Positions 18,542 through 59,527 of a stretch of 64,000 nucleotides of DNA are shown here, piece after piece. The notes beneath the pieces are model-generated. The model searched no databases, was not told the origin of the DNA, and was given only the letters and a program-made list of their open reading frames with translations. The stretch is taken from contig NZ_FXBM01000001.1 in assembly GCF_900177245.1 (NCBI RefSeq), positions 434,001-498,000 of the forward strand, read 5' to 3'. The stretch is from Rathayibacter oskolensis. Lineage in GTDB: Bacteria; Actinomycetota; Actinomycetes; Actinomycetales; Microbacteriaceae. Made by a program: the position numbers and the translations under genes. The stretch's first letter is position 1; each line of letters begins with the position of its first letter.

Positions 18542-18626
18542 GGAGGGCTGTCCGAGCGGCCGATGGAGCCAGTCTTGAAAACTGGTGGGCAGAGATGTCT
18601 CGTGGGTTCGAATCCCACGCCCTCCG
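18542..18626 (+). tRNA. tRNA-Ser (anticodon TGA), attachment site
   Basis: The acceptor arms GGAGGGC and GCCCTCC pair, with discriminator G at 18626 and no encoded CCA. The anticodon stem-loop is CCAGT-CTTGAAA-ACTGG (anticodon TGA). A long variable arm is typical of tRNA-Ser, and the T arm is GTGGG-TTCGAAT-CCCAC. Its 3' half from 18571 is duplicated at 30097-30152, so a mobile element is integrated here. The tRNA is intact because the element supplies the 3' half. Confidence 0.95.
18571..18601 (+). repeat. attL core (31-bp direct repeat)
   Basis: AGTCTTGAAAACTGGTGGGC followed by AGAGATGTCTC, identical to 30097-30127. It covers the anticodon stem-loop and variable arm of tRNA-Ser(UGA). Identity breaks at 18602 where the T-stem begins. 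Confidence 0.92.
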
Positions 18627-18746
18627 CCGCGTAAACACTGGGATCCGCTAGGGTCGGCTCGCTTGCCGGCCAGGGTCGTCCAGGAGGCAATCCCCTCCGA
18701 AACCCCGCGGCGCTGAATGAACGCCGCGTTCGGTTACAGTCGAGCC

Positions 18747-19259
18747 ATGACCGAGGCGCCCGCGAAAGCCCCGCGCACGTTCCGCATCGGCAACGGCCAA
18801 ATCGTCCTCGGATGGAAGCAGTACGTCGCCCTCGTGGGTTGCGTGGTGATCATCGTGATCGGCTTCGCGACGAACACCGCGAATCCCTGGGCTGGTGCTC
18901 TCGTCGCTCTGTCGACGGTCATCGGAACGTTGGTCGGTGTCGCGCTGCAGTTCCAACCCGTTGCCACGGACCCCTCACCTCGTGCGCTCGCCGCCATTCG
19001 TGGCCTGGGGAACATCTCACAGTCGACGGCCGACGCGAATCAGATCGTCGCTCAGGTGTTGACCGCCTCGAAGGAGGCGCGGACTCAGACGGGGCTCCTG
19101 TCCGTGCAACTGGATCTCGCTCAGATTGTCACGGACATCCGCATGTCGATGGTCCAATGGGAGGGCGTCGCACCTGGCTCCGTAGCGAGCTACGAGGAAG
19201 ACAGGGTCAAGAGCCGCGAATTGTTCCAGCGCCTCGCCGAGAAGGAGAACGATGTCTGA
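18747..19259 (+). CDS. Two-TM membrane protein, element cargo
   Basis: 170 residues from the ATG at 18747; an ATG ten codons upstream (18717) is also possible. Two hydrophobic helices (about 29-45 and 50-72) are followed by a ~95-residue cytoplasmic, helix-prone tail (NISQSTADANQIVAQVLTAS, then LSVQLDLAQIVTDIRMSM). No recognised domain; the two-helix hairpin plus soluble tail is reminiscent of membrane sensor/effector proteins, but that is only a topology argument. It is the first gene inside attL and overlaps the next gene by 8 bp, forming a three-gene cassette. Confidence 0.65.
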   Translation: MTEAPAKAPRTFRIGNGQIVLGWKQYVALVGCVVIIVIGFATNTANPWAGALVALSTVIGTLVGVALQFQPVATDPSPRALAAIRGLGNISQSTADANQIVAQVLTASKEARTQTGLLSVQLDLAQIVTDIRMSMVQWEGVAPGSVASYEEDRVKSRELFQRLAEKENDV

Positions 19260-19740
19260 CCTGGTTGTGCATGATGAACGAATTCGCGGCAAGGTCGCCG
19301 AAGTAGTAAGTGACCGCGAGGTCATCCTCAACCGCGGTAGCGACCACGGCATCGAGGAGGGGATGTACTTTGCGATCCTTGACGGCGCGCTGATTGGCGT
19401 AACTGACCCGGACGACGAGGACAGCGACCTGGGGAGTCTCCGCGTCGTGAAGATCGTCGTCCGTGCGGTGCAGGTAGCACCGCGCATGACGCTCGCGAGA
19501 ACGTTTCGCTCCCGCACCGTCAATGTGGGCGGTGTAGGTGGCGGCGGCTTCGGGATACTCACCGCGGCGCTCGAAGCCCCTCGATACGAGGAGCGCGTCG
19601 AGAAGCTCACGCTGGCGGAGAACGCGCCTCGAAAGATCGACCCGAAGGACAGCGTCGTCGGACGGGGCGACCCTTTCGAGTCAGCCGATGACGACGAGGT
19701 CGAGGACGTGCGATCGGTGACGGTGTGGGAGCCGCGCTAG
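19252..19740 (+). CDS. FlgT C-terminal-like beta-barrel protein, element cargo
   Basis: 162 residues. The segment GKVAEVVSDREVILNRGSDH followed by GIEEGMYFAIL matches the pattern of the FlgT C-terminal-like domain, which also occurs outside flagella in proteins of unknown role. A Gly-rich stretch (VGGVGGGGFGI) and an acidic C-terminus follow. No signal peptide or membrane helix. It overlaps the upstream two-TM gene by 8 bp and is 13 bp from the next, so the three genes are likely one transcript. The organism's role for it is unknown. Confidence 0.65.
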   Translation: MSDLVVHDERIRGKVAEVVSDREVILNRGSDHGIEEGMYFAILDGALIGVTDPDDEDSDLGSLRVVKIVVRAVQVAPRMTLARTFRSRTVNVGGVGGGGFGILTAALEAPRYEERVEKLTLAENAPRKIDPKDSVVGRGDPFESADDDEVEDVRSVTVWEPR

Positions 19741-19753
19741 CCCGGCCTGGGCG

Positions 19754-20104
19754 ATGAGCTTCGAAGCAACAGTCGCAATCGCCCAGATCCTCCCTGCGCT
19801 GCTTGTCGCAGGCGTGCTGGGTCCGATCTTGCTGGGTTGGAGGATCGAGCCGCCCGAACGGTTCTTATTCGCGACCCAGACTGTGATCGTGACCGCTGTC
19901 GAGGGCGTGCTGATCTGGTTCATCATGGAGGACGAGCCGCTTCCAGAGGGGTTCACGGGCTTCGTCTGGATGGCTGTGATGGTGACCCTGCTCGGCGTTG
20001 TCTTCGTCGCGATTGCATGGGCTCGCCGGTCGGGAGCGGAACGCCAGCACGAGGAGCGTCTACGAACCGCGCGAAAGCGACGGGGCCGACGCCGCAAGCG
20101 CTAG
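19754..20104 (+). CDS. Small membrane protein, element cargo
   Basis: 116 residues with three hydrophobic segments (about 6-28, 38-57 and 69-88) and a strongly basic tail rich in Arg (RTARKRRGRRRKR), likely on the cytoplasmic side and able to contact nucleic acid or membrane phosphates. No family recognised. It closes the three-gene cassette next to attL and is followed by a hairpin at 20118. The consistent membrane theme suggests the three products act together (inference). Confidence 0.6.
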   Translation: MSFEATVAIAQILPALLVAGVLGPILLGWRIEPPERFLFATQTVIVTAVEGVLIWFIMEDEPLPEGFTGFVWMAVMVTLLGVVFVAIAWARRSGAERQHEERLRTARKRRGRRRKR

Positions 20105-20117
20105 CCCGGCCAACGAC

Positions 20118-20154
20118 AGAACCCCGCTGCGACAGCCCATCGCCGCGGGGTTCT
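20118..20154. terminator. Hairpin between convergent cargo operons
   Basis: Arms AGAACCCCGC (20118-20127) and GCGGGGTTCT (20145-20154) are perfectly complementary with a 17-base loop. It lies between the rightward cassette and the leftward DUF3223 gene. Confidence 0.7.
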
Positions 20155-20176
20155 GAGTGCGTTGCGCGTAGAAATC

Positions 20177-20863
20177 CTAGATAAAGGGTTCTTCTGGTCG
20201 CTCGTTCTTTACGAATACCGGGTTGGCATGTTCCTCGTAGTAGGCGAGCCATGCCTCGCGAAGAGCATCATCCTCGAGATCGCGACCAATGAAGACTGCG
20301 CCATGCCCACTATGAGTTTCAATTGCATCCCACCCTCCGTGCTGGGCAACAAATCCTGACGTCAGCTCTTCCCAAGTGGGGTCGAGGTGTTGCGTGTTGG
20401 CTTGGTGCTTTTGAACGATTATGTCTCCTGTGAGGGCGCAGACTACGACTTCGCCCGTGGCAAATGCAGCGTCACGGCGACGGAGCCGAGGATCCACGAG
20501 GGGGAAGGCGAGCGCAGTCTTCACCTGAGCGGCTTTCGTCGGGTTGTCGATGACGTGGTAATAACTCCAGTCAACCGATGTTCCGTCAGTACGAACAACT
20601 ACGATTGCCCGCAAGTGTCGAGCGACTGCCTGCATGCCGGGAAGGCGCCAGGTTTCCTCGACGTAAAAGTGGTCGATTCCTGGTCCGATTTTATCGATTG
20701 CATTCTCGTGAAGGTTCAGCATTTCCGAAAGAAGCTGATGATTGGTACCGGCGGGGATCCGTTGCCGGAGAGGGTACCCCTTGATAATGTGCTCTCGGAT
20801 GTAGTCTTTTGCTGCGGTTCGGCTCTTGAAGGCCATAGAAGGAACCACGAATGGGATTGCCAA
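20177..20863 (-). CDS. DUF3223 domain-containing protein
   Basis: 228 residues. The N-terminal ~100 residues fit DUF3223: FKSRTAAKDYIREHI, then a conserved HENAIDKIGPGIDHFYVEE. This domain occurs in plant RNA polymerase IV/V subunits (DeCL-type) and in bacterial mobile-element proteins, often with nucleases; its biochemical role is uncertain. The C-terminal ~110 residues (TGDIIVQKHQANTQHLDPTW, then HSGHGAVFIG) show no known motif. The TTG at 20863 is used because the strand before FKSR belongs to the domain and AAGGA precedes it; an ATG at 20833 is possible. It lies 67 bp past the integrase gene, in the same direction. Confidence 0.7.
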   Translation of the reverse strand: MAIPFVVPSMAFKSRTAAKDYIREHIIKGYPLRQRIPAGTNHQLLSEMLNLHENAIDKIGPGIDHFYVEETWRLPGMQAVARHLRAIVVVRTDGTSVDWSYYHVIDNPTKAAQVKTALAFPLVDPRLRRRDAAFATGEVVVCALTGDIIVQKHQANTQHLDPTWEELTSGFVAQHGGWDAIETHSGHGAVFIGRDLEDDALREAWLAYYEEHANPVFVKNERPEEPFI

Positions 20864-20930
20864 TTTTGTCCGTCCTTTTCCTGAAGTGCAGCTGCTCGGT
20901 CTTGTTGCCGATCATGACAGGTCGGCCGCT

Positions 20931-22067
20931 TCATCGGGCAGCGACGAAGGCCTCGAACTGGGCGATCTGCGCGTTGTAGTCGGCCTGGTACAGGTGGCCG
21001 TAGATGCCGTCCGTGGTGGCGACGGAACCGTGCCCCATCCACCGGCTCACCTCGTAGGGCTTGAACCCCGCGGCGAGCATCAGCGATGCGTAGGTGTGGC
21101 GGAGGTCGTGGAAGCGCATCTTGTCCGCCACCTCCAGCCGCTTCGCGGTGGGGCGCAGGTGGTACCGGCGCACCCGGCCCGTGTCGAGCGGCTGCGTCCA
21201 GTCCAGGCGGCGCGACGCGTGAGCGTTGCCCGGGAAGAACAGCGCGTTGGGGTCGCCGGAGGCGGGGTGGGCCACCAGCAGCTCTCGCAGCTCGGCGACG
21301 AGCGCCCGGCTGAGCAGGGGAACGTTACGGGTGCTGCGGACGGACTTGGGCGTGCCCACGGCCCAGGCACCGTTAAGGCGCTTCACGGTCTGGCGGACCT
21401 CCACGTGCCCGGCCGCAAGGTTCACGTCGCGGATGCGCAGGCCGGAGATCTCGGCGGACCGGAGCCCCGTCTGGGCGGCGAAGCGCACCACAGTGCCGTA
21501 GGGGTGCACGGCGTCGAGCTCAACGGCGACGGCTTCCACCTGGGCCGCGGTCAGGAACACGGGTGCGAAGTCCTCAGCCGAGCCGGCACGGGGTAGCTGC
21601 ACCGCGTCGCAGGGGTTGTGGCTGATGAGTCGGTGGCGGACGGCGTACCGAAAAACCTTGGACACCGCGACGTAGTGGTTGCGGACCGTCGAGGTGGCGA
21701 GCCCTTCCGCCGTCAGGTCCGCAACCCACCGCTCCACGTGCTCGGAGGTGACCGCGGCGATGCGCTGCTTGCCGAACCGGGGCAGGATGCGCGCGTTGTA
21801 CAGCAGCACGTAGCCCGCGTACGTGGTCGGCTTCAGCCGCGGGCGGGACGCCGCCAGGGATGCGTCAAGCACCTGCTGGAAGGTCTTGCCGCGCCCGGCC
21901 AACGGCTCGGTGCTCGCGCCCGCGGCTTGCTCGCCTTCCACCCTCAAGGCGAATCGGTCCGCCTCGCGCTTCACGGTGAACGTGCGCTGGCGCTCCTTCC
22001 CATGCTCTCTCCAGCGCACCTCGTACGCCTTACCGGTCTTGCGCTCCACCTGTCGAACGTTCGCCAT
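20931..22067 (-). CDS. int: Tyrosine-type site-specific integrase
   Basis: 378 residues. An arm-binding N-terminus (YEVRWREHGKERQRTF) and a SAM-like core-binding domain (about 60-155) precede the catalytic domain with R203 (TGLRSAEISGL), H320 and R323 (FHDLRHTYAS), H346 (WMGHGS) and nucleophile Y356 (GIYGHLY). All five residues are present, so it is probably active. It would recombine the tRNA-Ser att sites. Its start overlaps the serine recombinase stop by one base (TGATG), so both recombinases are in one operon, an unusual arrangement. Confidence 0.95.
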   Translation of the reverse strand: MANVRQVERKTGKAYEVRWREHGKERQRTFTVKREADRFALRVEGEQAAGASTEPLAGRGKTFQQVLDASLAASRPRLKPTTYAGYVLLYNARILPRFGKQRIAAVTSEHVERWVADLTAEGLATSTVRNHYVAVSKVFRYAVRHRLISHNPCDAVQLPRAGSAEDFAPVFLTAAQVEAVAVELDAVHPYGTVVRFAAQTGLRSAEISGLRIRDVNLAAGHVEVRQTVKRLNGAWAVGTPKSVRSTRNVPLLSRALVAELRELLVAHPASGDPNALFFPGNAHASRRLDWTQPLDTGRVRRYHLRPTAKRLEVADKMRFHDLRHTYASLMLAAGFKPYEVSRWMGHGSVATTDGIYGHLYQADYNAQIAQFEAFVAAR

Positions 22068-22729
22068 CAGGCAGCCTCCTCGGCGAGGGCTGCGCGTTGC
22101 ACCACGCGGCCGACGGCAACGTGCGTCCGCTGGGCCGACCCGCCAGGGGTGGGCACGCCCTCTGCGTTGAGCAGGCGGGCGATGCCAGACAGGGACACGC
22201 CCTGGGCGCGACGGGAGAGGACGAGCGCCTCAACCTCGGCGGGCACGGTTGAAGGCTTCCCGAGCTGGACGCCCTCGGAGCGCTTGACGGCCAGGGCAGC
22301 GGCAGTGCGCTCGCCGATGATCTCGCGCTCCCACTGGGCGATCCCGATGAGCATCCCCGCGATCAGCCGACCAGTGGCGCTGCTGGTGTCGAGGTTGAAG
22401 TCGAGGACGGCGATGGCCCAGCGTTGCCGTGCTGACAGGGCGAGTAGGTCCCCGAAGTCCATCACCGACCGGGACAGTCGGTCGAGCTTGGCAGCGACGA
22501 GACCGTCCGCCACCCGCCCCTTCCGCGAGCGGAGGGCGGCGAGGGCGGACTGGAGGCCGGGGCGATCGGTGCTCTTGCCGGACACCCCGTCGTCCTCGTA
22601 CCAGCCGACGATCTCCCACCCGTTGCGCTCGGCGGCGGAGAGGATGGCGGCGCGCTGGGCCTCCAGGCCGAGGCGTTCCTCGCGGAGCCGGTCGGCCTTG
22701 CTCACGCGGAGATAGGCGATGAGCCGCAT
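22067..22729 (-). CDS. Serine recombinase (resolvase/invertase family)
   Basis: About 220 residues. The N-terminal catalytic domain shows AYLRVS with the nucleophile Ser, then WYEDDGVSGKSTDRPGLQ and the active-site segment VAAKLDRLSRSVMD. The C-terminal ~45 residues form a helix-turn-helix (GVSLSGIARLLNAEGVPTP). Size and layout match small resolvases rather than large serine integrases, suggesting dimer resolution or DNA inversion. The ATG at 22729 gives a TGATG junction with the upstream small gene; a GTG at 22738 is also possible. A 20-bp palindrome 0.3 kb upstream may be its target. Confidence 0.9.
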   Translation of the reverse strand: MRLIAYLRVSKADRLREERLGLEAQRAAILSAAERNGWEIVGWYEDDGVSGKSTDRPGLQSALAALRSRKGRVADGLVAAKLDRLSRSVMDFGDLLALSARQRWAIAVLDFNLDTSSATGRLIAGMLIGIAQWEREIIGERTAAALAVKRSEGVQLGKPSTVPAEVEALVLSRRAQGVSLSGIARLLNAEGVPTPGGSAQRTHVAVGRVVQRAALAEEAA

Positions 22730-22947
22730 CAGCGCCACCCCAGCTCTGCACTCGCGGCGCCCGGAAGGTAGCCGACGTGACGCGCCTCGGGCAGGTACAC
22801 GACCGAGCCCTCGTCGGTGGTAACGGCGACGGGCTCGCCCGCCTCGTACTCCATCGGGTACGACGGCTGGGAGGCGAGGCGCACCTCGGCGTCGCCGGGC
22901 AGGTCGCTGAGCATGTCGATCAGCTCAGCAACGGTCAGCTTCTTCAT
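22729..22947 (-). CDS. Small hypothetical protein, element
   Basis: 72 residues. It opens with KKLTVAELIDMLSDLPGDAE, a pattern common in small phage and plasmid proteins of unknown role; a short beta-rich middle follows (VAVTTDEGSVVYLPEA). AAGGAG lies 8 bases before the ATG at 22947. It is the first gene of a coupled set with the serine recombinase and integrase, so it may assist or regulate recombination. Confidence 0.6.
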   Translation of the reverse strand: MKKLTVAELIDMLSDLPGDAEVRLASQPSYPMEYEAGEPVAVTTDEGSVVYLPEARHVGYLPGAASAELGWR

Positions 22948-23043
22948 CACGGTTTCTCCTTGGTTTCCGAACGCTGACGGACGTCACCGTTCGGGTTACT
23001 CTCGCCTGCCGCCCACAGGATCAAAACTCCCGGTCAGGAATCC

Positions 23044-23063
23044 GATTCTCTGGCCAGAGAATC
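23044..23063. promoter_or_regulatory. Perfect 20-bp palindrome
   Basis: GATTCTCTGGCCAGAGAATC is its own reverse complement. It lies in the 235-bp gap upstream of the small gene-resolvase-integrase operon. It is a candidate operator or resolvase site. Confidence 0.6.
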
Positions 23064-23182
23064 CCTCAGCTCACCCCGGAGGGCGCCCCTGGGGTTCTCG
23101 TGGGCATATGGGTGGGTTCTGGGCCAGCGGCGCACATGCCCGCGTCGCGGTCGCCAGATAGGTCCCGCCGCTGGCCCACCCG

Positions 23183-23971
23183 TCACCGCTTCGGCTGACG
23201 CCCGGCGACCCTCGGCCGCTTCCGCGGGCCGTCCGTCTCCCGGGCTCTCGGGTCCGCCTCGACGGGCGGGTGCTCCGGCGGCACGACCGTGTCCCGCCTC
23301 GACTGCACCGGGCCGGGCTGCCGGGGCGCATCGGTGCTGGTCTGCATCTTCGGAACGTTGCTCGGGCGGCGGGCTGGAGCCTTCCGCCGAGGCGGCGCCG
23401 GGTCTGAGGCGTCGGTCCGGGCGGGGGTGCGGTTGCGGCGGTGGTAGGCCTGCTCCTCGGCCCACTCCTCGTCCGTCGCCGTCCGCGGGGCTGGAACGTT
23501 GCGCGGAGCGGGCTCGATGGCGACGGGCCGCTCGGGCTCGTCGTCCACCTCGTCGGCGTCCACGATGTCGTGGTAGGTGAAGGCCGACTCCAGAGGCTCG
23601 ATGTCCATGATGATGTCCCGGGCGACCTCATCGAACTTGGAGATCTTCATATCGACGGAAAGCTCCTGCTTACCGATGAAGCCGTTCCTGTCCAGAAGGT
23701 CCTTGGCTGCGGCGATCTTGTCTCGGTCCGAGGTCTTCGGATTCATCATGATCTGGAGCATCGTGTAAGCGGCCTTGTCGGCGGACTCTGCATACCGCTG
23801 TTCAGCCCTCCGTCGTACCTGCGGGGCTCTCCCTCCGTGTGTGGAGCAGACATTCGTGCCTTTGACGGGTGGTCGCTTACATGGGTCGCCATTCCGCCTA
23901 TGCGCAGCGCACAGCACACTCGGCGTTCTCCCGTCATTCCAAAGTCCAACGTTTTGGCCTTCATCACTCAT
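23183..23971 (-). CDS. Terminase-small-subunit-like zinc protein
   Basis: 262 residues. A zinc-binding element CAAHRRNGDPCKRPPVKGTN then VCSTHGG (Cys/His ligands) is followed by APQVRRRAEQRYAE and AAKDLLDRNGFIGKQELSV. This order is common in actinobacteriophage proteins annotated as small terminase or DNA-binding proteins; the latter motif resembles TerS helices. The last ~120 residues are disordered and rich in Pro/Arg. The ATG at 23971 is preferred over 24037 because AAGGAG lies 8 bases upstream. It is downstream of the primase gene, the position TerS takes in phage-inducible islands. Confidence 0.6.
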   Translation of the reverse strand: MSDEGQNVGLWNDGRTPSVLCAAHRRNGDPCKRPPVKGTNVCSTHGGRAPQVRRRAEQRYAESADKAAYTMLQIMMNPKTSDRDKIAAAKDLLDRNGFIGKQELSVDMKISKFDEVARDIIMDIEPLESAFTYHDIVDADEVDDEPERPVAIEPAPRNVPAPRTATDEEWAEEQAYHRRNRTPARTDASDPAPPRRKAPARRPSNVPKMQTSTDAPRQPGPVQSRRDTVVPPEHPPVEADPRARETDGPRKRPRVAGRQPKR

Positions 23972-24053
23972 GGTATTTACTCCTTCTTTGAACTTCTCGA
24001 ATAAGTTCTTTGGACTTCTTGAATTGGGTCTATTCACCCTCGGTCACATCAGA

Positions 24054-24265
24054 CTCGTCTCCCTAAGGGACGGAGACGGGACGAGACGACTTGCCGTCGT
24101 CGTCGTCCCCGCACCGCCCTACACATCCCGGCTAGGGGAGTCGTCTCGGGCGGAGACTGATCGGAGACGAGTTGTTTTTCGCGCGGTTGATGGGTTCCGC
24201 CGGGGAGTCGTCTCGGAGTCGTCTCCGCGCCGAGACCGCTCCGCCTAACCGGACTCCGGATCGGT
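24054..24265. repeat. Cluster of GTCTC/GAGAC motifs
   Basis: At least nine GTCTC or GAGAC pentamers, most extended to TCGTCTC or GGAGACG, fall between 24054 and 24238, with a tenth just inside the primase gene near 24265. The spacing is irregular and both orientations occur. The tract fills the 273-bp gap between the primase gene and the terminase-like gene. It may be a replication origin, protein-binding array or operator. Confidence 0.6.
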
Positions 24266-26302
24266 CTCGGGCAAGACGAGTCGCGGTGGCGTGGCGTCGG
24301 AAAGTCGCCACCGTTCCCGCATCGCGCCCTCCTCGCCGGGCGCCTTCTCGGAAGTCAAGCGACCCGCCGAAATGAGCTCGTTCCAGGCCTTGGCGAAGGA
24401 ATCGACGCCGACCTTCTGCGAACCCCGGACCTCGTCGCGGACCTGAGTTTTCGTGTACTGCAGCGGGGAGTCCTCGACCAGGGTGAGGATGGCCGCGCCG
24501 AGGGCGCTCTGGCGACCTTCACCGCCGCCGGACTTCTTCGCACCCCAGGTGGCGTTGCGCACCTCGACGGACAGGTCGCCGTCGTGCTCGCCGGTGTCCG
24601 CGTCGAACCTTCCGAAGGCCCAGTCGACGACGTACTGCTGGCCGCCCCACTGCCGCGAGCCGAACTGGACCCCGATGGAGAAGTCGCCCTCGTCCACGCG
24701 CGGCGGGGTGTCGTGCTGCATCAGCACCCACGAGTCCGCCCACTGACCCACGCCGGACTGGGCGATGGAGTCGAGGTCGAGGGCCTGCCCGACGCTCGTC
24801 TTGCGGAAGTGGTCCGCGATCACGAGGGCGCACCCGGGCGGCATCGACTGGCTGATCTGCGCCAGCATCGCGCCGCGGTCGTAGAGGTTCTGGGCCTCGA
24901 CGCCCGCGGGGTGGTAGGCGTAGAGCGGGTCGATGATGACGAGGCCGGGCTGCTCATCGTCCACCGCCCTGCGGAAAGCGGCGACGAACTCGTCCCCGGT
25001 CACGTCGCCCGCGTCGAACACCATCCGGAGAGGCAACGACGCCAGGTCGACGCCCATGTGCTCCGCGATGCGCTGGATGCGACGCTGTGTTGGCCCCTTG
25101 CCGCCCTCGCCGAGGTACATCAGCACCGGGCGCGGCGTGACGACCTCGAACCTTCCGAGGAAGGGCTGGCCGCTGGCGACGGCGAGCATGAGCGAGATGG
25201 CGGTGTAGGTCTTGAGGGTCTTCTTCTCGCCCGCGAGGACGCCGTAGGACCCTGCCGGCCACACACCCTTCACCATCCACTCCATCGGCGGGACGGGCTG
25301 CGCGAGGTCGGCCGCGGTGACGGTCTTGAACCGCTCCGGGGCGTTGCTCCGCAGCCGGTCCATCTCCGCCAGCAGGGCCTCGACGGTGCCGTCGTGGTTC
25401 ATCCAGTAGTCGGTGAGGTCCTCGCCTTCCTTCTCAATGTAGGTCAGGCCGAGCCGGGTCAGGTCGAGGATGCGTGCGGTGGCACCTACGGCGACCAAGC
25501 GCTCCTGAACCTTCTTGGCGCCGCTGACGCCCGCCTTGTCGGCGTCGTACGCCACGAACACCTCACGACCAGCCAACGCCGACAGGTCGCGCGGAGGGTT
25601 GGCTGCACCGCCCGTGCCGGTGAGCGCGAGGAACCTCCCGTCGCCTTTCTGCAACGTCAGCAGCGCGTCGAGTTCGCCCTCACAGAGGATGACGGGCGCG
25701 GTGGAATCGGCGAGCACTTCGAGTGGGTACAAGACCGCGGTTCCGTGGCCCGGAATCTGCAACATCTTGTTCGGACCCTGTGCACCACTTTTGTACAGCT
25801 TCGCGTTGACCCAATGGCCCTCGACGCGAATCGGGATAGTGATGCGCTCTCCGTTGAAGCCCAGCTTGAATCGCTCGATGGTGGCTTCGGTCAAGCCGCG
25901 TTGGTTCTGGAGGAATTCACGAGGCTTTGTGTGGCGGCCCATCAACAGCTGGTGCCAGTCGTAAGGCTTCTCCTGGTCGTCCAGAGGCGGCGGCGGAGCG
26001 ACGGGCGCGGGCGGGGTTCGGCGCACCGGCGCCTTGCGATTTGTCCTGGTCCCCGCGCGTTTGATCACCTGGCCAACGTCGAGACCGAGCTGGCTGAGAG
26101 CAGCCTTGATGTCGGCCCAGTCGCAGCCGCCGTGACATTCCACGGCCACCGGCTTCTTGCGACCTCCCGTGAGAGCGAAAGAGGCGTGCTCGTCCGTGTG
26201 CGCCGGATTCGGGCAACGCGCCTGCCACTGGTTCTCGCCCGTCTGCTCCGCTCCGAGGGCGATGATGTATTTCTGCAGCTCGGGCGATACCGGCGCGCTC
26301 AC
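24245..26302 (-). CDS. Primase/AAA ATPase replication protein
   Basis: 685 residues. A CHC2-type zinc finger (CPNPAHTDEHASF, then VECHGGCDW) is at about 30-65. A TOPRIM domain follows with CEGELDALL and VAYDADKAG (about 205-265). A RepA-like ATPase has Walker A GEKKTLKT near 358 and Walker B LVIIDPLYAY near 455. A winged-helix-like C-terminus ends the protein. It is a one-protein primase-helicase for autonomous replication of the element, as in satellite pri-rep genes and integrative plasmids. Its ATG overlaps the AlpA-like gene's stop (ATGA). Confidence 0.9.
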   Translation of the reverse strand: MSAPVSPELQKYIIALGAEQTGENQWQARCPNPAHTDEHASFALTGGRKKPVAVECHGGCDWADIKAALSQLGLDVGQVIKRAGTRTNRKAPVRRTPPAPVAPPPPLDDQEKPYDWHQLLMGRHTKPREFLQNQRGLTEATIERFKLGFNGERITIPIRVEGHWVNAKLYKSGAQGPNKMLQIPGHGTAVLYPLEVLADSTAPVILCEGELDALLTLQKGDGRFLALTGTGGAANPPRDLSALAGREVFVAYDADKAGVSGAKKVQERLVAVGATARILDLTRLGLTYIEKEGEDLTDYWMNHDGTVEALLAEMDRLRSNAPERFKTVTAADLAQPVPPMEWMVKGVWPAGSYGVLAGEKKTLKTYTAISLMLAVASGQPFLGRFEVVTPRPVLMYLGEGGKGPTQRRIQRIAEHMGVDLASLPLRMVFDAGDVTGDEFVAAFRRAVDDEQPGLVIIDPLYAYHPAGVEAQNLYDRGAMLAQISQSMPPGCALVIADHFRKTSVGQALDLDSIAQSGVGQWADSWVLMQHDTPPRVDEGDFSIGVQFGSRQWGGQQYVVDWAFGRFDADTGEHDGDLSVEVRNATWGAKKSGGGEGRQSALGAAILTLVEDSPLQYTKTQVRDEVRGSQKVGVDSFAKAWNELISAGRLTSEKAPGEEGAMRERWRLSDATPPRLVLPETDPESG

Positions 26303-26508
26303 GGCTTCACGACGTTGGTGCGCGAGCCGAGGATGAACTCGGTGATGTCCTCGTCGGCCAGGAGGACGATCAGCCCACCGGGGCGCGCATAGCTGATGGT
26401 CTTGTTCTGGACAGCGCGACGGAACTGGCGCTCGGTGATGCCGTACTTCTCGGCGAGCGGGTGTGTCGCGGCTTCCGACAGCTTCCAGACGGTCTTAGTG
26501 GTGCTCAT
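26299..26508 (-). CDS. AlpA-like/excisionase-type DNA-binding protein
   Basis: 69 residues. KLSEAATHPLAEKYGITERQ then FRRAVQNKTISYARPGG fits a winged helix-turn-helix of the excisionase/AlpA type, where a short helix and a recognition loop precede a beta-hairpin. Such proteins control excision or early transcription in prophages and satellites. The ATG at 26508 follows a GAGGAA ribosome site; the longer frame to 26523 covers that site. Coupled to the primase gene by a four-base overlap. Confidence 0.7.
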   Translation of the reverse strand: MSTTKTVWKLSEAATHPLAEKYGITERQFRRAVQNKTISYARPGGLIVLLADEDITEFILGSRTNVVKP

Positions 26509-26523
26509 GGCGGGTTCCTCCAA

Positions 26524-26887
26524 GGCGAATGGAGGGCGTTGCCGTTAAATGCGAAAAGGCGCAGAGGCGGGGAACGCCCATCCTAGAAAAAGGGATGGAA
26601 TGCAAACCGTCGATGGCTGATGCCACGCGGATGTTGCTTGTTCCCACTCGTCTCGTACGCCCTAGGTCACAAGGGACCGGGTGAATGCCGTTCCATCCTT
26701 GGCCTCGACCGCGTGTTCGCTCAACCTGAGTTCCGGCTACTCGTTGTCCGGAGGTGTGAGCGCCATTCGGAAGCGCTTATGGATGTAGTGGAGTATTCAG
26801 TTGTTCGACAGTTTCGTATGTTCGCTACTGGTTCCGTAACGCCCGAACAAGTCGGGCCACCGAAGCTTACCTCGGTTCAGGATGAGT
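26524..26887. other. Control region upstream of the replication genes
   Basis: A 364-bp low-GC gap. It contains two copies of TTACCTCGGTTC spaced 21 bp (26867-26878 and 26888-26899; the second runs into the end of the next gene), which is two helical turns and suits dimeric regulator binding or short iterons. AT-rich stretches such as TGGATGTAGTGGAGTATTCA lie in the middle. No convincing gene was found. Promoter for the AlpA-primase operon is expected here but not proven. Confidence 0.45.
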
Positions 26888-27385
26888 TTACCTCGGTTCG
26901 GGTCGGTCCCGCTTTGTGACCTCCGCGAGGCGCTCTGACAGGCGCATCTCGCGGAATCGAGTCCACTCGGGCTCGACGGGTTCTGCGTTCAGCCACAGCT
27001 CGACGCCGTGGAGGTCGGCGGTGGCGTCGATAGCCCGGAGCATGTCCCAGCCTCGCCAGGGCTCCCGGGCAACGACGCCGCGGCTGCTGAAGAAGTGCTG
27101 TAGCTCCTGCGCCAGCTTGTAGCCGCTGAAGCGCTTGCCCATTGCCTCCCACAGCCCGATGCGCAACGCGGCGTCGGTGACGGGTCCGTGCGAGGTGGGC
27201 TGGAGGTCCCGGGCGTCGCACCGGAGCCGGACGCGCAACGAGGCGAACTCCACCGGCGACAACAGCCGCATAGGCGTGTTCACGGGGTCCGGCTTCCACT
27301 CCGGCTCTGTAGAACCTTCAAGGGCTCTTTCCCAGTGCGCGAACAATACGCGTGTGGGTGAAAAGGGTAGACTAAGGGTGTTCAC
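26888..27385 (-). CDS. Hypothetical protein, element
   Basis: 165 residues. GGAAGGAACACC precedes the GTG start at 27385. The sequence has a mixed helical pattern (LLSPVEFASLRVRLRCDARD, then FSGYKLAQELQHFFSSRG, then RAIDATADLHGVELWLNA) and no membrane segment. No family was recognised. It lies upstream of the AlpA-primase genes in the same direction, separated by the 364-bp control region, so it is probably a separate early gene. The function is unknown. Confidence 0.55.
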   Translation of the reverse strand: MNTLSLPFSPTRVLFAHWERALEGSTEPEWKPDPVNTPMRLLSPVEFASLRVRLRCDARDLQPTSHGPVTDAALRIGLWEAMGKRFSGYKLAQELQHFFSSRGVVAREPWRGWDMLRAIDATADLHGVELWLNAEPVEPEWTRFREMRLSERLAEVTKRDRPEPR

Positions 27386-27417
27386 GGTGTTCCTTCCTGC
27401 CTGTTTGTGCGTGTCCG

Positions 27418-27458
27418 AGAACAGCCCCAGAGTCTGCCTTCCGCTCTGGGGCTGTTCT
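27418..27458. terminator. Hairpin after the 27473-28638 operon
   Basis: AGAACAGCCCCAGAG (27418-27432) pairs exactly with CTCTGGGGCTGTTCT (27444-27458) around an 11-base loop. It lies just past the end of the leftward gene at 27473. No T tract follows. Confidence 0.7.
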
Positions 27459-27472
27459 GCGTGTGCGGTGAC

Positions 27473-28039
27473 TTACAGCGTCGGTGACGGTCCGGGCGTC
27501 CGCGAGGCGACGGGGGCCGCGGCGGTGGTGACGTCGACGGAACCGGCGCGGTTCAGCCCCTGCCCGTCGACCCAGCTCTGCCGGGTCTCGAACCGCTGGT
27601 TGCCCGTGAAGAACTTGTTGCGCAGCCGAGCCAGGTCGTTGTAGGGGTCACGGAGCTTCTCTGCCCTCCAGGACAGGTCGCTCTCCTTCTTGGCGAGCTG
27701 CGCGAGGGCGTCCTGCACCTGCTGGAAAAAGACGTTGTACCGCGCGACGGCCTCTCCGATGTCGACGGGCTTCTCGGTCCAGGACGCGTTGACGAACGGT
27801 CCGGTGATCTCGTTCTGGAGTTTGTCGGCGAGGTGCTCAGCGGTCTGGATCGTCGTCGTCAGGTCGGCGACGGCCCGCTGCCCTTCTCGGACCAGCTCGC
27901 GTTCGTGGGAGCGGACCTCGTCGAAGACCAGCTGGTCGACGTGCTTGATGGCGTCGCGCTCGGCCTTGGCGTTGGCGTACGGCTGGTCGCGGACCGATGA
28001 GCGCACCTCGTCGAAGTTGCCACGCGGGAAGGCGATCAT
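27473..28039 (-). CDS. Coiled-coil hypothetical protein, element
   Basis: 188 residues, mostly helical with heptad-like stretches (KAERDAIKHVDQLVFDEVRS, then QRAVADLTTTIQTAEHLADK) and an unstructured Ala/Pro-rich tail. No motif or membrane segment seen. The start overlaps the upstream gene's stop (ATGA at 28036-28039), so the two are coupled. No function can be assigned. Confidence 0.55.
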   Translation of the reverse strand: MIAFPRGNFDEVRSSVRDQPYANAKAERDAIKHVDQLVFDEVRSHERELVREGQRAVADLTTTIQTAEHLADKLQNEITGPFVNASWTEKPVDIGEAVARYNVFFQQVQDALAQLAKKESDLSWRAEKLRDPYNDLARLRNKFFTGNQRFETRQSWVDGQGLNRAGSVDVTTAAAPVASRTPGPSPTL

Positions 28040-28410
28040 CGTCCCGCTCCGCCCGCGAACGAGCCACCGATGGTGCGGTTGCCCTTCTTCTTGGCGTACG
28101 CCTGCAGGCGGTCGTGCCGCTCGGTGCGAGCCTCGTGCTGCTCGATGACGGCGAGGAGGGCCTCCTCTGCGTCGCTGAGCGCGGCCTTCAGCTCCTGCGC
28201 CGCCCGCTGGGCGACGGGGACGTGCTTGCGCTTGAGGTCACGAGCGAGCGCCGACCCTTCGGTCCCGGGGTACGCGGGCAGGTCGGCATGAATCTGTCGC
28301 TGTGAGAGGCCGGGGATGTGGTCGGCGAGGTCGTTGGAGACCTCCGATGGGATGGCGTCGGAAACGGGGCCACCTGGGAGCTGCCGCGGGGTCACGTACT
28401 GCGTACTCAT
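28036..28410 (-). CDS. Hypothetical protein, element
   Basis: 124 residues. The N-terminal half is Pro-rich, the C-terminal half is a charged helix (AAQELKAALSDAEEALLAVI, then EARTERHDRLQAYAKKKG) likely to form a coiled coil with the partner encoded next. The tail ends in GGSFAGGAGR. It sits between the ribbon-helix-helix gene (12 bp upstream) and the coiled-coil gene (overlap), forming a three-gene operon. Confidence 0.55.
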   Translation of the reverse strand: MSTQYVTPRQLPGGPVSDAIPSEVSNDLADHIPGLSQRQIHADLPAYPGTEGSALARDLKRKHVPVAQRAAQELKAALSDAEEALLAVIEQHEARTERHDRLQAYAKKKGNRTIGGSFAGGAGR

Positions 28411-28422
28411 TGTCGAGCCTTT

Positions 28423-28638
28423 CTATTCGTTATTGGGTCGGGAAGTGAGGGAAAGTGGGATGGGTGGGTGGTCCGGGAGGAGGTTGAGCGCCACGAGCTT
28501 CTCGGCCAACGCGATACGGATCAGCGAGGCCTTCGCCAGGCCGGTTGCCGCGACGAACGCGTCGAGCGCCTTGTCCATTTCGGTCGGAATGGACGCTCGG
28601 ACGGTGACGTAGTTTTTGGGTGGACGGCCTGTCGGCAT
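28423..28638 (-). CDS. Ribbon-helix-helix DNA-binding protein
   Basis: 71 residues. The strand VTVRASIPTEMDKAL followed by two helices (DAFVAATGLAKASLIRIALA) is a CopG/Arc-type ribbon-helix-helix; RPPKNYV precedes it. Such proteins repress their own operon and often control plasmid copy number or satellite early genes. It begins the leftward operon (then 28410 and 28039) and faces the rightward 28827 gene across 188 bp, so it likely controls that divergent promoter region. Confidence 0.75.
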   Translation of the reverse strand: MPTGRPPKNYVTVRASIPTEMDKALDAFVAATGLAKASLIRIALAEKLVALNLLPDHPPIPLSLTSRPNNE

Positions 28639-28826
28639 TTAGGCGCCTCCTTTTCTGATCGGATAGCGCTACTTCAACCGCCTTACCATGCCTCGCGTTT
28701 GATCCGATCGCTTTTCAAATGTCGATTGAGTCAAGCCCAGAGTGCAAGGTGATCCCGTTGGAATAAGTAATAGCGACAAGCAGGCGAACGAGTAGGGTTC
28801 GGGCACGCCGACAAGAGGAGAGAACC

Positions 28827-29012
28827 ATGGGACAAATATTCGAAGGCCGAGCCGGCAAGGCGCCCTATCAGCGGGTTACTGCAGCCGAGCGCGAGGAGGC
28901 GACGGAGTACGCCGGAACGACTGACGGCTCCGATCCGATGTCAACGGCGCGGCGCCCGCTGAGCGCTGCGGAGCAACGGCGGGCGATGTTCCGAGCGCCC
29001 AACGGCTCCTAG
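28827..29012 (+). CDS. Small hypothetical protein, element
   Basis: 61 residues, hydrophilic and probably disordered (MGQIFEGRAGKAPYQRVTAA). AGAGGAGAG lies 5 bases before the ATG, a strong ribosome site, which supports a real gene despite its size. It is transcribed away from the ribbon-helix-helix gene and ends before a hairpin at 29037. No function known. Confidence 0.55.
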   Translation: MGQIFEGRAGKAPYQRVTAAEREEATEYAGTTDGSDPMSTARRPLSAAEQRRAMFRAPNGS

Positions 29013-29036
29013 CTCGTCGCTGAGCGCCCAACGCTG

Positions 29037-29065
29037 GGCCGCTCCGGCACGACCGCGGAGCGGCC
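29037..29065. terminator. Hairpin after the 28827 gene
   Basis: GGCCGCTCCG (29037-29046) and CGGAGCGGCC (29056-29065) are perfect complements with a nine-base loop, 24 bp after the stop codon. Confidence 0.6.
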
Positions 29066-29089
29066 TAGCGTCCCTACTACCCTGGGCGC

Positions 29090-29920
29090 ATGACGGACGA
29101 GGACAAGTGGGCGCCGCTCGGCATGGACCCGGAGCCGCTGGAAGCGCTCACGGACGGGGTGCCGCCCTGGCTCCACCACTCGCTTTGGGCCTGGATCGAG
29201 GTCAACGTCAGCCCGTCTCCGTATGGACGTACGGAGGACCTCGTTGCGCAGTACGACCGACGAACCCGCCGCCGTGTTCCTCTCTACCCCGGCTTCTATC
29301 GTCGCGGCCTGGGCTCCCTGCAAGACGAGCTGAGCGAGGACGAGACGATCCGGTTCGTGGACTTCCTGCTCGCCCACGGTCTGAGCCTCAACATCGCCGG
29401 GTTACGCGAGCTGCTGCTGGACGGCGGGTCGTTGTGGGCGCTCGGCGAGCGGTCCGGGCGACGCGGCCTGGTCCGCCGAGTCCCCGAGGGCGTGCAGCGG
29501 GCTGCCGAGGAGGCGATGTCGGCGCCCGGACACGCGGGACCGTTGCTTGCCGAGGCGTGGGGCTCCACGTTCGGGGTGGGCCCCGACTACGAGCGCGCCT
29601 ACTCGAAGTCGGTCAAGGCGGTGGAGGCCGCGTCGATTCCTGTGGTGATGCCGACGAACCGTTCCGCCGGACTCCAGAATGTCATCGGTCAGATGCGCGC
29701 TGACGGCGACTGGGGACTCGCCATGTCGCGGGAGCACTCCCTGAATACGAGCGCTGCCACCGTTCTGGCCATGATGCAAGTTCTTTGGACCGGGCAGAAC
29801 GATCGTCACGCCGGACAGCCTGGGTACAGCCCAAGCACTGCGGCTGATGGGGAAGCTGCGGTGCTGTTGGCGGTCCCGCTGGTGCAGTGGTTCACCTCCG
29901 GAGCCATCGCCCGCCGCTGA
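29090..29920 (+). CDS. Abi-C/HEPN-like protein, putative defence gene
   Basis: 276 residues. The C-terminal ~120 residues (YERAYSKSVKAVEAASIPVV, then NRSAGLQNVIGQMRADGDWG, then GQNDRHAGQ and VPLVQWFTSGA) match the abortive-infection C-terminal (Abi_C) type of helical domain; the DRHAG segment sits where HEPN-like proteins keep an Arg/His pair, though a canonical R-x4-6-H RNase motif is not clear. The first ~130 residues (LTDGVPPWLHHSLWAWIEVN) show no known domain. It is the last gene before attR, a usual cargo position. A role in phage defence or exclusion is inference from family and location. Confidence 0.6.
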   Translation: MTDEDKWAPLGMDPEPLEALTDGVPPWLHHSLWAWIEVNVSPSPYGRTEDLVAQYDRRTRRRVPLYPGFYRRGLGSLQDELSEDETIRFVDFLLAHGLSLNIAGLRELLLDGGSLWALGERSGRRGLVRRVPEGVQRAAEEAMSAPGHAGPLLAEAWGSTFGVGPDYERAYSKSVKAVEAASIPVVMPTNRSAGLQNVIGQMRADGDWGLAMSREHSLNTSAATVLAMMQVLWTGQNDRHAGQPGYSPSTAADGEAAVLLAVPLVQWFTSGAIARR

Positions 29921-30096
29921 CGGATCCCCGCGGAAAACCCCTCCAACCGCGCTCCGCCGAGCTGATCCGAACCGAACCGGAGCGCGCCGCGAGAAGGTGT
30001 CCAAGGTGGGCCGGATCCCAGCGTTCATGCGGGAAAACCGGCCTCTCGCGGCCTGATGCGGAGCAGTTCGGTTTGCCCCGGTAAGAGACCTTCCGA

Positions 30097-30152
30097 AGTC
30101 TTGAAAACTGGTGGGCAGAGATGTCTCTAGGGTTCGAATCCCTAGCCCTCCG
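30097..30152 (+). repeat. attR with 3' half of tRNA-Ser
   Basis: The first 31 bp equal 18571-18601. The rest keeps the tRNA 3' half with a T-stem TAGGG-TTCGAAT-CCCTA and acceptor GCCCTCC, differing from attL in two base pairs that change together. There is no 5' half, so it is not a tRNA gene; it is the displaced chromosomal 3' end. Confidence 0.92.
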
Positions 30153-30333
30153 CCACGCGGGGCTGCCCCGCATGTCGTCCCCTGCTCGATCGTGGCAGGC
30201 CCTGCGAGGGCGAACGCCCGCCTCCCTCCCCGCGCGGCTGCTAAGCCCGCCGTCCACCTCGTCGACCCGCTCGCCGGGGGATCGTCGACCGACGGGTGCC
30301 CTGAGGCTCCCGTCGGTCGACGCCACCTGACGA

Positions 30334-51696: not shown

Positions 51697-52068
51697 CCGA
51701 TCAGTGTGCACGCTGCACCGGGTGCACGCCGGGCGTGCGACGGAGCCGGGGCTCGACGTCGCGGTGCCGACCGGCACCCGTATACCGGACGCCTCGACGC
51801 GATGCAAGGATCAGCACTTGCGCGGCGTGGCGAAGTCGGTCTATATTCGTACTTTGCGCTCCCGAGTACCCATGCCCTCATATTGCGGTCGGCAGGTCAC
51901 CGGAACCCGGCATCAGATGGTGGATGCCGTTGCCACACTGTAGCCCCCTCCGAAGACCGCGTCACAGCGGTCCCTGCGGCGCTGGGCACGGTGTCGGCCC
52001 GCCCGGCGGGAGCCCACTCCACACATCCCACAGATTGAGACCCGCGAGGGTCTACGGAGGTTCCTTCC
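51697..52068 (+). promoter_or_regulatory. rpoB upstream region with promoter candidate at 51818-51847
   Basis: A 372-bp gap with no gene. TTGCGC (51818-51823) and TATATT (51842-51847) are spaced 18 bp and resemble a primary sigma promoter facing rpoB, leaving a ~215-nt leader. The leader may contain attenuation structures; none is assigned. Confidence 0.5.
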
Positions 52069-55560
<3,492 letters not shown>

Positions 55561-55627
55561 TCCGCGCCAGCATCTGACGACCTCCCGTCTCTGACGAGAC
55601 ACCCTGTTTTCCGACAAGGAGAAAACA

Positions 55628-59527
<3,900 letters not shown>

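Follow-up and report, generated by a model that had tools for sequence, protein, structure and literature searches.

We analysed a 64,000-nt window of the Rathayibacter oskolensis genome, in which an integrated island occupies a tRNA-Ser(TGA) gene (Table 1). The island is bounded by a direct repeat (18571-18631 and 30097-30157) that is 92% identical over 61 nt and fully identical over its first 31 nt, and the spacing of the two copies, 11,526 bp, gives the island's length. The repeat is not a product of chance, since an 11,424-bp island of L029, in the same tRNA-Ser, lies between copies of it, and since in three of the five relatives compared at this locus (L050, L051 and L052) the flanks known from the window enclose an unbroken tRNA-Ser; another of the five, L053, carries an insert of about 1 kb. 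An element of this length between 31-bp repeats in tRNA-Ser had been proposed in the original prediction, and the exact repeat, the second island and the three empty relatives confirm it. Two compensating pairs distinguish the T-stem of the tRNA gene from that of the right-hand copy, the T-arm following attR is that of L050, L053 and L029, and both T-arm versions are present in relatives without the island. Most simply, the 3′ half of tRNA-Ser(TGA) derives from the island.

Table 1. Features of the island and its target gene, in window coordinates.
Feature	Position	Strand	Support or remark
tRNA-Ser(TGA), target gene	18542..18628	+	ARAGORN
attL, identical 31-bp core	18571..18601	+	exact repeat
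Cargo ORF, 180 aa, no family	18717..19259	+	
Cargo ORF, 162 aa, no firm family	19252..19740	+	
Cargo ORF, 116 aa, no firm family	19754..20104	+	
DUF3223 protein, possible defence cargo	20177..20863	-	PADLOC HamC2-like, 2.8e-47
Tyrosine integrase	20931..22067	-	Pfam 3.6e-18
Small serine recombinase, resolvase/invertase type	22067..22738	-	Pfam 6e-37
p73, small ORF	22729..22950	-	positional counterpart of p91, no similarity to p91
Non-coding segment 3′ of terS, candidate packaging site	23002..23153	-	90% identical to L029
Terminase small subunit-like protein, N-terminal zinc motif	23183..23971	-	profile matches and phage neighbourhoods
Iteron array, candidate replication origin 3′ of primase gene	23972..24244	-	GAGACGA x6, both orientations
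TOPRIM + AAA_25 primase-helicase	24245..26302	-	AAA_25 7.7e-32
AlpA-like small HTH protein (excisionase or activator)	26299..26523	-	L008 counterpart matches HTH_17
p165, family-specific protein	26888..27385	-	no match in phage records
p188, family-specific protein	27473..28039	-	no match in phage records
p124, family-specific small protein	28036..28410	-	homologues in other islands
Ribbon-helix-helix (RHH) regulator, first gene of minus-strand run	28423..28638	-	weak Pfam match, same position elsewhere
p61, divergent small ORF	28827..29012	+	76% identical in L029
p276, cargo of no assigned family	29090..29920	+	fragment kept in L029
attR, identical 31-bp core	30097..30127	+	exact repeat

Pfam matches bear out the integrase, recombinase and primase-helicase named in the original prediction. 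The two regulators named there stand through their counterparts: the window's RHH protein falls below the Pfam cut-off (0.0041), but its homologues occupy the same place in other islands, and the AlpA-like protein has no Pfam match of its own, but its L008 counterpart matches HTH_17 (6.9e-7). The gene caller misses low-GC genes, among them the window's DUF3223 gene and the p165 gene of L030, the latter detected by tblastn. A tblastn search of 50,697 phage records gave nothing at 0.01 for the window's p188 or p165, the p165 proteins of five other islands have no PHROG match, and a p188 profile finds weak coiled-coil-type matches among solved structures (best 0.019). The small ORF preceding the recombinase is not conserved; p91 of L008, L014 and L017 matches phage families of unknown function, p73 and the ORFs of L016 and L029 are unrelated to p91, and none is called in L030.

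The terminase small subunit-like (TerS-like) protein was identified from profile matches and phage neighbourhoods. Its family profile matches the solved structures 7joq ('Small Terminase subunit', 2.3e-7) and 6w7t (9.3e-5, entirely beyond the zinc motif), with the TerS alignments holding the L014 protein shortened by a too-late start and one alignment holding the L029 protein likewise shortened. The window protein itself matches phrog_2538, terminase small subunit, at 1e-4, and its start most likely lies at 23971, because this position is conserved in the L029 homologue. We viewed 12 phage neighbourhoods, 11 drawn from 31 TerS-matching phage records and one from another search. The homologue adjoins the large terminase gene (TerL) or lies one gene off in four of them (Juicer, D_HF5_3, Mae-JY09 and CRP-13), overlapping it in Juicer and Mae-JY09; it lies 5-6 kb away in Cinna and MO526, and no TerL is in view in Megan, Mimi and TripleJ. 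We rejected an identification from the zinc motif alone, which is not diagnostic because these last five phage homologues are distant from TerL or have none in view. The earlier description of a terminase-small-like zinc protein is upheld by the profile matches to solved TerS, by phrog_2538 and by the homologues beside TerL; a terminase small subunit, present in some PICIs, is thus recognised here by homology only.

The segment 3′ of terS (23002..23153) is conserved in L029, where the adjoining p73 and recombinase are not the same, and it contains a 20-bp perfect palindrome at 23044-23063. It has no convincing phage match (one match of 25 bases, E 0.2), and neither the palindrome nor a motif shared by L015 and L030 has any. 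By eye, we also observed an inverted repeat before the gene following terS in L014, L015, L016 and L030. We lean towards a putative recombinase site, because the repeat accompanies recombinases that are 68-83% identical; against this, 15 nt of it are common to L017, whose recombinase is 32-34% identical.

Directly 3′ of the primase gene, iterons are significant in six of eight islands and in none of nine control gaps, with a sequence specific to each element; in L030 and L008 the gap that was tested falls short of significance. Only L029 clearly has an iteron set on either side of an AT-rich centre. Scans of viral contigs with the primase and TerS, by few exact peptide patterns and hence insensitive, found no relative, and the integrase search of viral contigs gave one match at 29% (L007).

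Seven further islands share the core (L008, L014, L015, L016, L017, L029 and L030), which comprises RHH, p124, p188, p165, the AlpA-like protein, primase, TerS-like protein, serine recombinase and tyrosine integrase, with the RHH of L016 assigned from position and alignment only. The organisation characteristic of PICIs (integrase, replication module, regulator) is conserved in the window island and all seven others, and we infer that RHH is the master regulator. The L017 island is cut by a contig end, leaving seven complete islands including the window's; in these, with both ends mapped, the att repeats lie 9,888-11,679 bp apart, and the integration sites are tRNA-Ser (twice), tRNA-Tyr (twice), tRNA-Thr, tRNA-Met and the end of one protein gene. 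The check proposed with the original prediction, a search for this block in related genomes, thus found it there, and each of the six further islands with both ends has the att duplication. The family is apparently undescribed.

A TerS profile matched 11 of 299 genomes, seven with this island type; the remainder were one prophage and three elements inserted in a comM-like gene (head protein seen in the two scanned). The primase profile matched 5 of 398 genomes, all with this island type, and within the genus 2 of 60, both among those five. A p188 search across the order matched 3 of 396: two known islands and L054, a derivative of 6,579 bp from which p165 to TerS are deleted and which is not counted among the seven. 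L029 and L030 were located via terS and so carry it by design of the search, and all five islands located via the primase carry terS. Between the window and L029, the integrases are 91% identical with a dN/dS of 0.18, the ratio is 0.18-0.31 across int, terS, rhh, p165 and p61, and p188 stands at 0.52, so that five of the six genes tested are well under 1. This pair has integrase, site and TerS in common, and its replication module and cargo differ; replication and TerS-linked segments appear to be swapped independently of each other.

The absence of virion and conjugation genes, as first claimed, holds in the proteins scanned. Among 16 window proteins compared with Pfam and PHROGs, matches besides TerS were at chance level (tail 0.087 and 0.12, spanin 0.34), and no family of structural or lysis proteins reached E 0.01 among 40 proteins from the eight islands (nine from the window), in a scan covering part of the core proteins and with uncalled gaps of up to 0.94 kb (L030). 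The island proteins scanned include no capsid family, as capsid-forming PICIs would have, no tail or large-terminase family, and no relaxase or FtsK/TraB family, as AICEs or conjugative elements would have. A cargo gene matching a PADLOC model is present in all seven complete islands, the matches for methylases and kinases being generic, and the DUF3223 cargo has no informative match among solved structures. Judged from family matches only, the variable genes near the island ends are probably host defences directed at other phages.

Our preferred reading, with a probability of about 0.77, is that the window holds an intact phage satellite of PICI type that encodes a TerS. The satellite assignment, first made from layout, is supported as PICI-like by the TerS homology, the iterons 3′ of the primase and the defence-like cargo, the last two being independent PICI-like features. 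Membership of the PICI family itself is tentative, because no helper phage was identified, either by phage matches to the terS-adjacent segment or by portal and TerL searches in carriers, and because six of seven carriers have no Phage_portal match. Those searches used two models on 10 genomes, seven of them carriers other than the window's own, with Phage_portal matching in one of the seven and TerL_ATPase in none; prophage matches were obtained in G449, which carries no island at this site.

The scarcity of prophages (most carriers show none detectable with the two models) would also suit a non-conjugative integrative replicon of AICE or IME kind, transferred by transformation or by the conjugation machinery of another element, in which a captured terS-like gene serves another use. 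AICEs are integrating actinobacterial replicons residing in tRNA genes, and an integrating plasmid would require just such an integrase, excisionase-like protein, primase and iterons. However, the scanned proteins hold terS instead of FtsK/TraB or relaxase families, megablast against 72,556 plasmid records finds no match to the island, and the seven plasmid records matched by the primase, distantly through TOPRIM or AAA, align over no more than 80% of its length. In addition, terS is present in every island found via the primase and is under purifying selection, although the deletion derivative L054 has lost it. We regard such a replicon as unlikely.

A defence island, spread mainly by its integrase and host recombination and carrying a zinc DNA-binding regulator in place of a true TerS, would explain the defence-like cargo of every complete island and the zinc-motif homologues located away from TerL in phages. 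It is made very improbable by the match of the part beyond the zinc motif to solved TerS, by phrog_2538, and by the overlap with TerL in two phages. That a prophage decayed and lost its structural genes is scarcely credible: the phage-type integrase, terS and the phage-family matches of p91 in three other islands would fit, but the frames are open, dN/dS is low for all tested genes except p188, the window's p188 and p165 have no phage match, and the gene set and size recur in several genomes, whereas sites and cargo vary. Separate events of decay are hardly expected to arrive at one gene set and size.

As a PICI-type satellite, the island would be held by its tyrosine integrase at the anticodon region of tRNA-Ser, the site shown by the empty relatives. 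The RHH regulator would keep it quiet until a helper phage relieves repression, and the AlpA-like protein, judging from its kind, may aid excision or activation. The primase-helicase would start replication at the iteron array 3′ of its own gene, and the serine recombinase would probably resolve multimers. The satellite TerS would bring satellite DNA to the large terminase of the helper, perhaps by recognition at the conserved segment 3′ of terS, which is co-inherited with it in one island pair, and the island would travel in helper capsids. The p124-p188-p165 block may, speculatively, act on the helper. On balance, we lean slightly towards Microbacteriaceae hosting a distinct, capsid-less satellite lineage of independently exchanged cassettes: primase with iterons, terS with the adjacent recognition segment, serine recombinase, integrase with att, and a defence gene. 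If so, packaging specificity could change without a change in replication, and vice versa.

In PMC6092414, PICIs are about 12-15 kb long, and their origin lies immediately 3′ of the replication gene, with two iteron sets flanking an AT-rich region. As in the SaPIs and E. coli PICIs described there, the islands have an integrase, a small regulator or AlpA, a primase, iterons directly 3′ of the replication gene (in six of eight) and terS further 3′; accessory genes lie at the ends and no structural genes were found. PICIs also have genes exclusive to their class, for which p188 and p165 are candidates as judged against phage records. The original likeness to phage-inducible islands stands for the AlpA, primase and TerS organisation, but the size is close and somewhat smaller, at 9.9-11.7 kb. 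In contrast to those PICIs, terS is followed here on its 3′ side by a serine recombinase and then the integrase, that PICI description contains no RHH-p124-p188-p165 block, and iterons flanking an AT-rich stretch are clear only in L029.

Closer hosts offer other comparisons. The Mycobacterium candidate PICIs of PMC10654092 are likewise integrated actinobacterial elements, some at tRNA genes, proposed to be satellites, but they were chosen by a major capsid gene, and none was found here. The Mulch and Flayer satellites of Streptomyces, also actinobacterial, have packaging and capsid genes and no obvious replicases as portrayed in PMC10690885, whereas the present family has a primase and terS and no capsid gene found. 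Experimental validation of actinobacterial satellites lags, according to one survey. The islands are also a source of compact candidate genes for phage defence, in a group from which many phages have been isolated (Microbacterium). Set beside the capsid-carrying actinobacterial satellites of these two sources, this is a capsid-less terS family, in which the window and L029 form a natural experiment to show by which cassette the helper is chosen.

The island in the window is a real, integrated mobile island of a recurrent family, and it is apparently intact. Its 61-nt direct repeat is 92% identical overall with the first 31 nt identical, and three relatives (L050, L051 and L052) carry an intact tRNA-Ser without an island, both window flanks directly adjoining; by comparison, these empty sites demonstrate integration at the tRNA-Ser. 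The 31-bp att repeats, the 11,526-bp spacing and the tRNA-Ser(UGA) target of the original prediction are confirmed. At another relative's locus, L053, about 1 kb separates the tRNA from the right flank. The repeat copies differ at two T-stem pairs, each changed on both sides, which preserves the pairing. The relatives whose left flank is most like the window's, L029, L050 and L053, have the right-hand sequence; L051 and L052 have the left-hand one. Because an integrating island itself supplies the tRNA end on the left, the left-hand sequence most simply came in with the island; this is not proof, as both versions occur in the genus. GC content in 1-kb windows is mostly 0.58–0.71 within the island and 0.69–0.76 in the 18 kb to its left and 20 kb to its right. 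A second GC dip (0.645–0.688), with positive AT skew, lies elsewhere in the window. In L029, a third tRNA-Ser fragment is found 1,991 bp past attR, with one gene of unknown function between, and is perhaps what is left of an older integration there.

Islands, insertion sites and other features located in this analysis
Feature	Position	Site	Repeat; att spacing	Iteron	Cargo
Window island	18571, 30097 (repeat copies)	tRNA-Ser(TGA), 18542-18628 (ARAGORN)	61 nt; 11,526 bp	GAGACGA x6	HamC2-like (PADLOC)
L008, Agromyces mediolanus		tRNA-Tyr	53 nt; 11,374 bp		SIR2 PDC-S25 (PADLOC)
L014		tRNA-Tyr	11,679	CCCGACC x7	MTase_II + Vsr-like (PADLOC)
L015	5549, 16709 (repeat copies)	junction of two genes	19 bp; 11,160	CGAGGCG x8	weaker PADLOC match, 7.7e-8
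L016		tRNA-Thr	10,288	CCGAACC x6	MTase_II with BamHI-type endonuclease
L017				CCGGACC x7	
L029		tRNA-Ser	11,424	GAGCCGC x8	SIR2 PDC-S25 (PADLOC)
L030		tRNA-Met	9,888		kinase (PADLOC)
Short version	L054:7666-14289	tRNA-Met	island size 6,579 bp		
DUF3223 protein, window	20177-20863				
TerS-like protein, window	23183-23971 (-)				
Non-coding block, window	29017-29071				
Second GC dip, window	52001-57000				
Region of the third tRNA-Ser fragment	L029:1478-3527				
Juicer gene 1	L001:1-651				
Mae-JY09 ORF	L063:3159-3746				
Integrase relative	L007:10001-11038				

Pfam and PHROGs confirmed the predicted tyrosine integrase, small serine recombinase and TOPRIM plus AAA_25 primase-helicase. The predicted lack of virion genes also held, as structural and lysis families in the window gave chance-level matches only (tail 0.087 and 0.12, spanin 0.34). 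The DUF3223 protein matches PADLOC's HamC2 (2.8e-47). A relative of the integrase (29%) is present on a 30.8-kb viral contig. Between the small ORFs p61 and p276 lies a 55-bp non-coding block with 92.7% identity to L029, a possible operator or promoter.

A scan of a species-genome collection with the primase's AAA region found the Agromyces island (74% over 231 aa), in which tblastn detected integrase, serine recombinase, TerS (the terminase small subunit-like protein), primase, and the family-specific proteins p188 and p124. A two-row primase profile picked out 5 of 398 Microbacteriaceae genomes; for a six-row TerS profile the figure was 11 of 299. Annotation by a codon-usage gene caller and BLAST showed the order RHH (ribbon-helix-helix regulator), p124, p188, p165, AlpA-like, primase, TerS, serine recombinase and integrase in seven further islands (L008, L014, L015, L016, L017, L029 and L030), of which all but L017 have att repeats. 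The L017 sequence stops at a contig edge within the primase, the L016 RHH was assigned by position and alignment (27%), and the L030 p165 was detected by tblastn alone. A small ORF precedes the recombinase in seven islands and is homologous (p91) only among L008, L014, L015 and L017. The L015 repeat falls at the end of a gene that we take to be transporter-like, where it joins a second such gene, and both keep open reading frames beside the island. The short version, L054, keeps RHH, p124, p188, serine recombinase and integrase without p165, AlpA, primase or TerS, and looks like a deletion derivative. Elements carrying a TerS homologue were also seen in a presumably comM-like gene (L031, L032 and L033, in genomes G277, G081 and G195); a phrog_3990 major head protein match lies near the homologue in both elements scanned (L031 and L033), and the three appear to be another type of satellite, one with a capsid gene.

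Modules are shared unevenly between islands. The window island and L029 have in common the site, integrase (90–91%), TerS (81–82%), RHH (76%) and p165 (80–82%). They part in the primase, which in L029 is of D5_N type, in the iterons, in the serine recombinase (33%) and in the SIR2-like gene that L029 carries. Between L008 and L015, TerS is closely similar (66%) and primase (33%) and integrase (42%) are not; between the window island and L008, the close proteins are primase (54%) and recombinase (57%), and the distant one is TerS (33%). Between the window and L029, dN/dS is 0.18–0.31 for int, terS, rhh, p165 and p61, 0.52 for p188, and 0.15 for a host gene beside the site. PADLOC matches occur in all seven complete islands (window, L008, L014, L015, L016, L029 and L030), and the methylase and kinase matches are generic.

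The TerS identity of the window protein, as predicted, is likely, though not proven, from sequence comparison. It matches phrog_2538 (1e-4) and phrog_10899 (0.0018), both terminase small subunits, and phrog_3678 of unknown function (2.2e-9). An eight-row family profile matched two small terminases of known structure, one at 2.3e-7 and the other at 9.3e-5; the latter alignment falls entirely beyond the zinc motif. Among 12 phage neighbourhoods of homologues, the large terminase (TerL) adjoins or is one gene away in four (Juicer, Mae-JY09, circular D_HF5_3 and CRP-13, whose homologue is annotated TerS), about 2 kb away in three (SM23, Montesquieu and, if genome ends are joined, FuzzBuster), 5–6 kb away in two (Cinna, ends joined, and MO526), and absent from the stretch viewed in three (Megan, Mimi and TripleJ). 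In prophage L034 the TerS homologue is followed by a serine recombinase, then, about 2 kb away, by an ORF corresponding to the final third of TerL, and then by a portal. Gene 1 of Microbacterium phage Juicer and an ORF of Microcystis phage Mae-JY09, both annotated hypothetical, are similar to the island TerS, and each overlaps the terminase gene of its phage; they are probably the terS genes of those phages.

The window island is most likely a phage satellite that encodes TerS and lacks capsid genes, PICI-like in its working, with packaging putative. DNA conserved between the window and L029 includes a 152-bp non-coding segment 3′ of terS (90%), which holds a 20-bp palindrome; conservation ends short of p73 and the recombinase, which differ between the two. 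Since the segment goes with terS in this one pair, we propose it as a candidate packaging site. Weighing against the satellite reading, this segment has no convincing phage match, insensitive IMG/VR pattern scans found nothing related to the primase or TerS, and among seven carrier genomes, the window's own not included, the two families sought gave Phage_portal in one and TerL_ATPase in none. The lack of a phage match and the few prophage matches leave helpers that infect the cell instead of residing in it, or transfer by some other means.

Our literature search found no paper joining satellite, integrase, terminase and Microbacteriaceae, nor one joining phage satellite, PICI, Actinobacteria and terminase small subunit; the SatelliteFinder set may list some islands. 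A survey of actinobacterial prophages suggests PICIs as a possible identity for small elements and notes that validation lags (PMC10023795), mycobacterial candidate PICIs were selected by capsid gene (PMC10654092), and a Streptomyces satellite paper places homologues of known satellites in Actinomycetota (PMC10690885).

A candidate replication origin lies between primase and terS, where iterons change in sequence from island to island. Their counts in six islands were reached by 0 of 500 dinucleotide shuffles; the L008 and L030 gaps had no significant iterons (p 0.296 each), nor did any of nine control gaps from five islands. According to Fillol-Salom et al. (PMC6092414), a PICI origin lies just 3′ of the replication gene and consists of sets of iterons flanking an AT-rich stretch. 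The position of the island iterons fits that of a PICI origin; such an AT-rich centre is clear in L029 alone among the islands.
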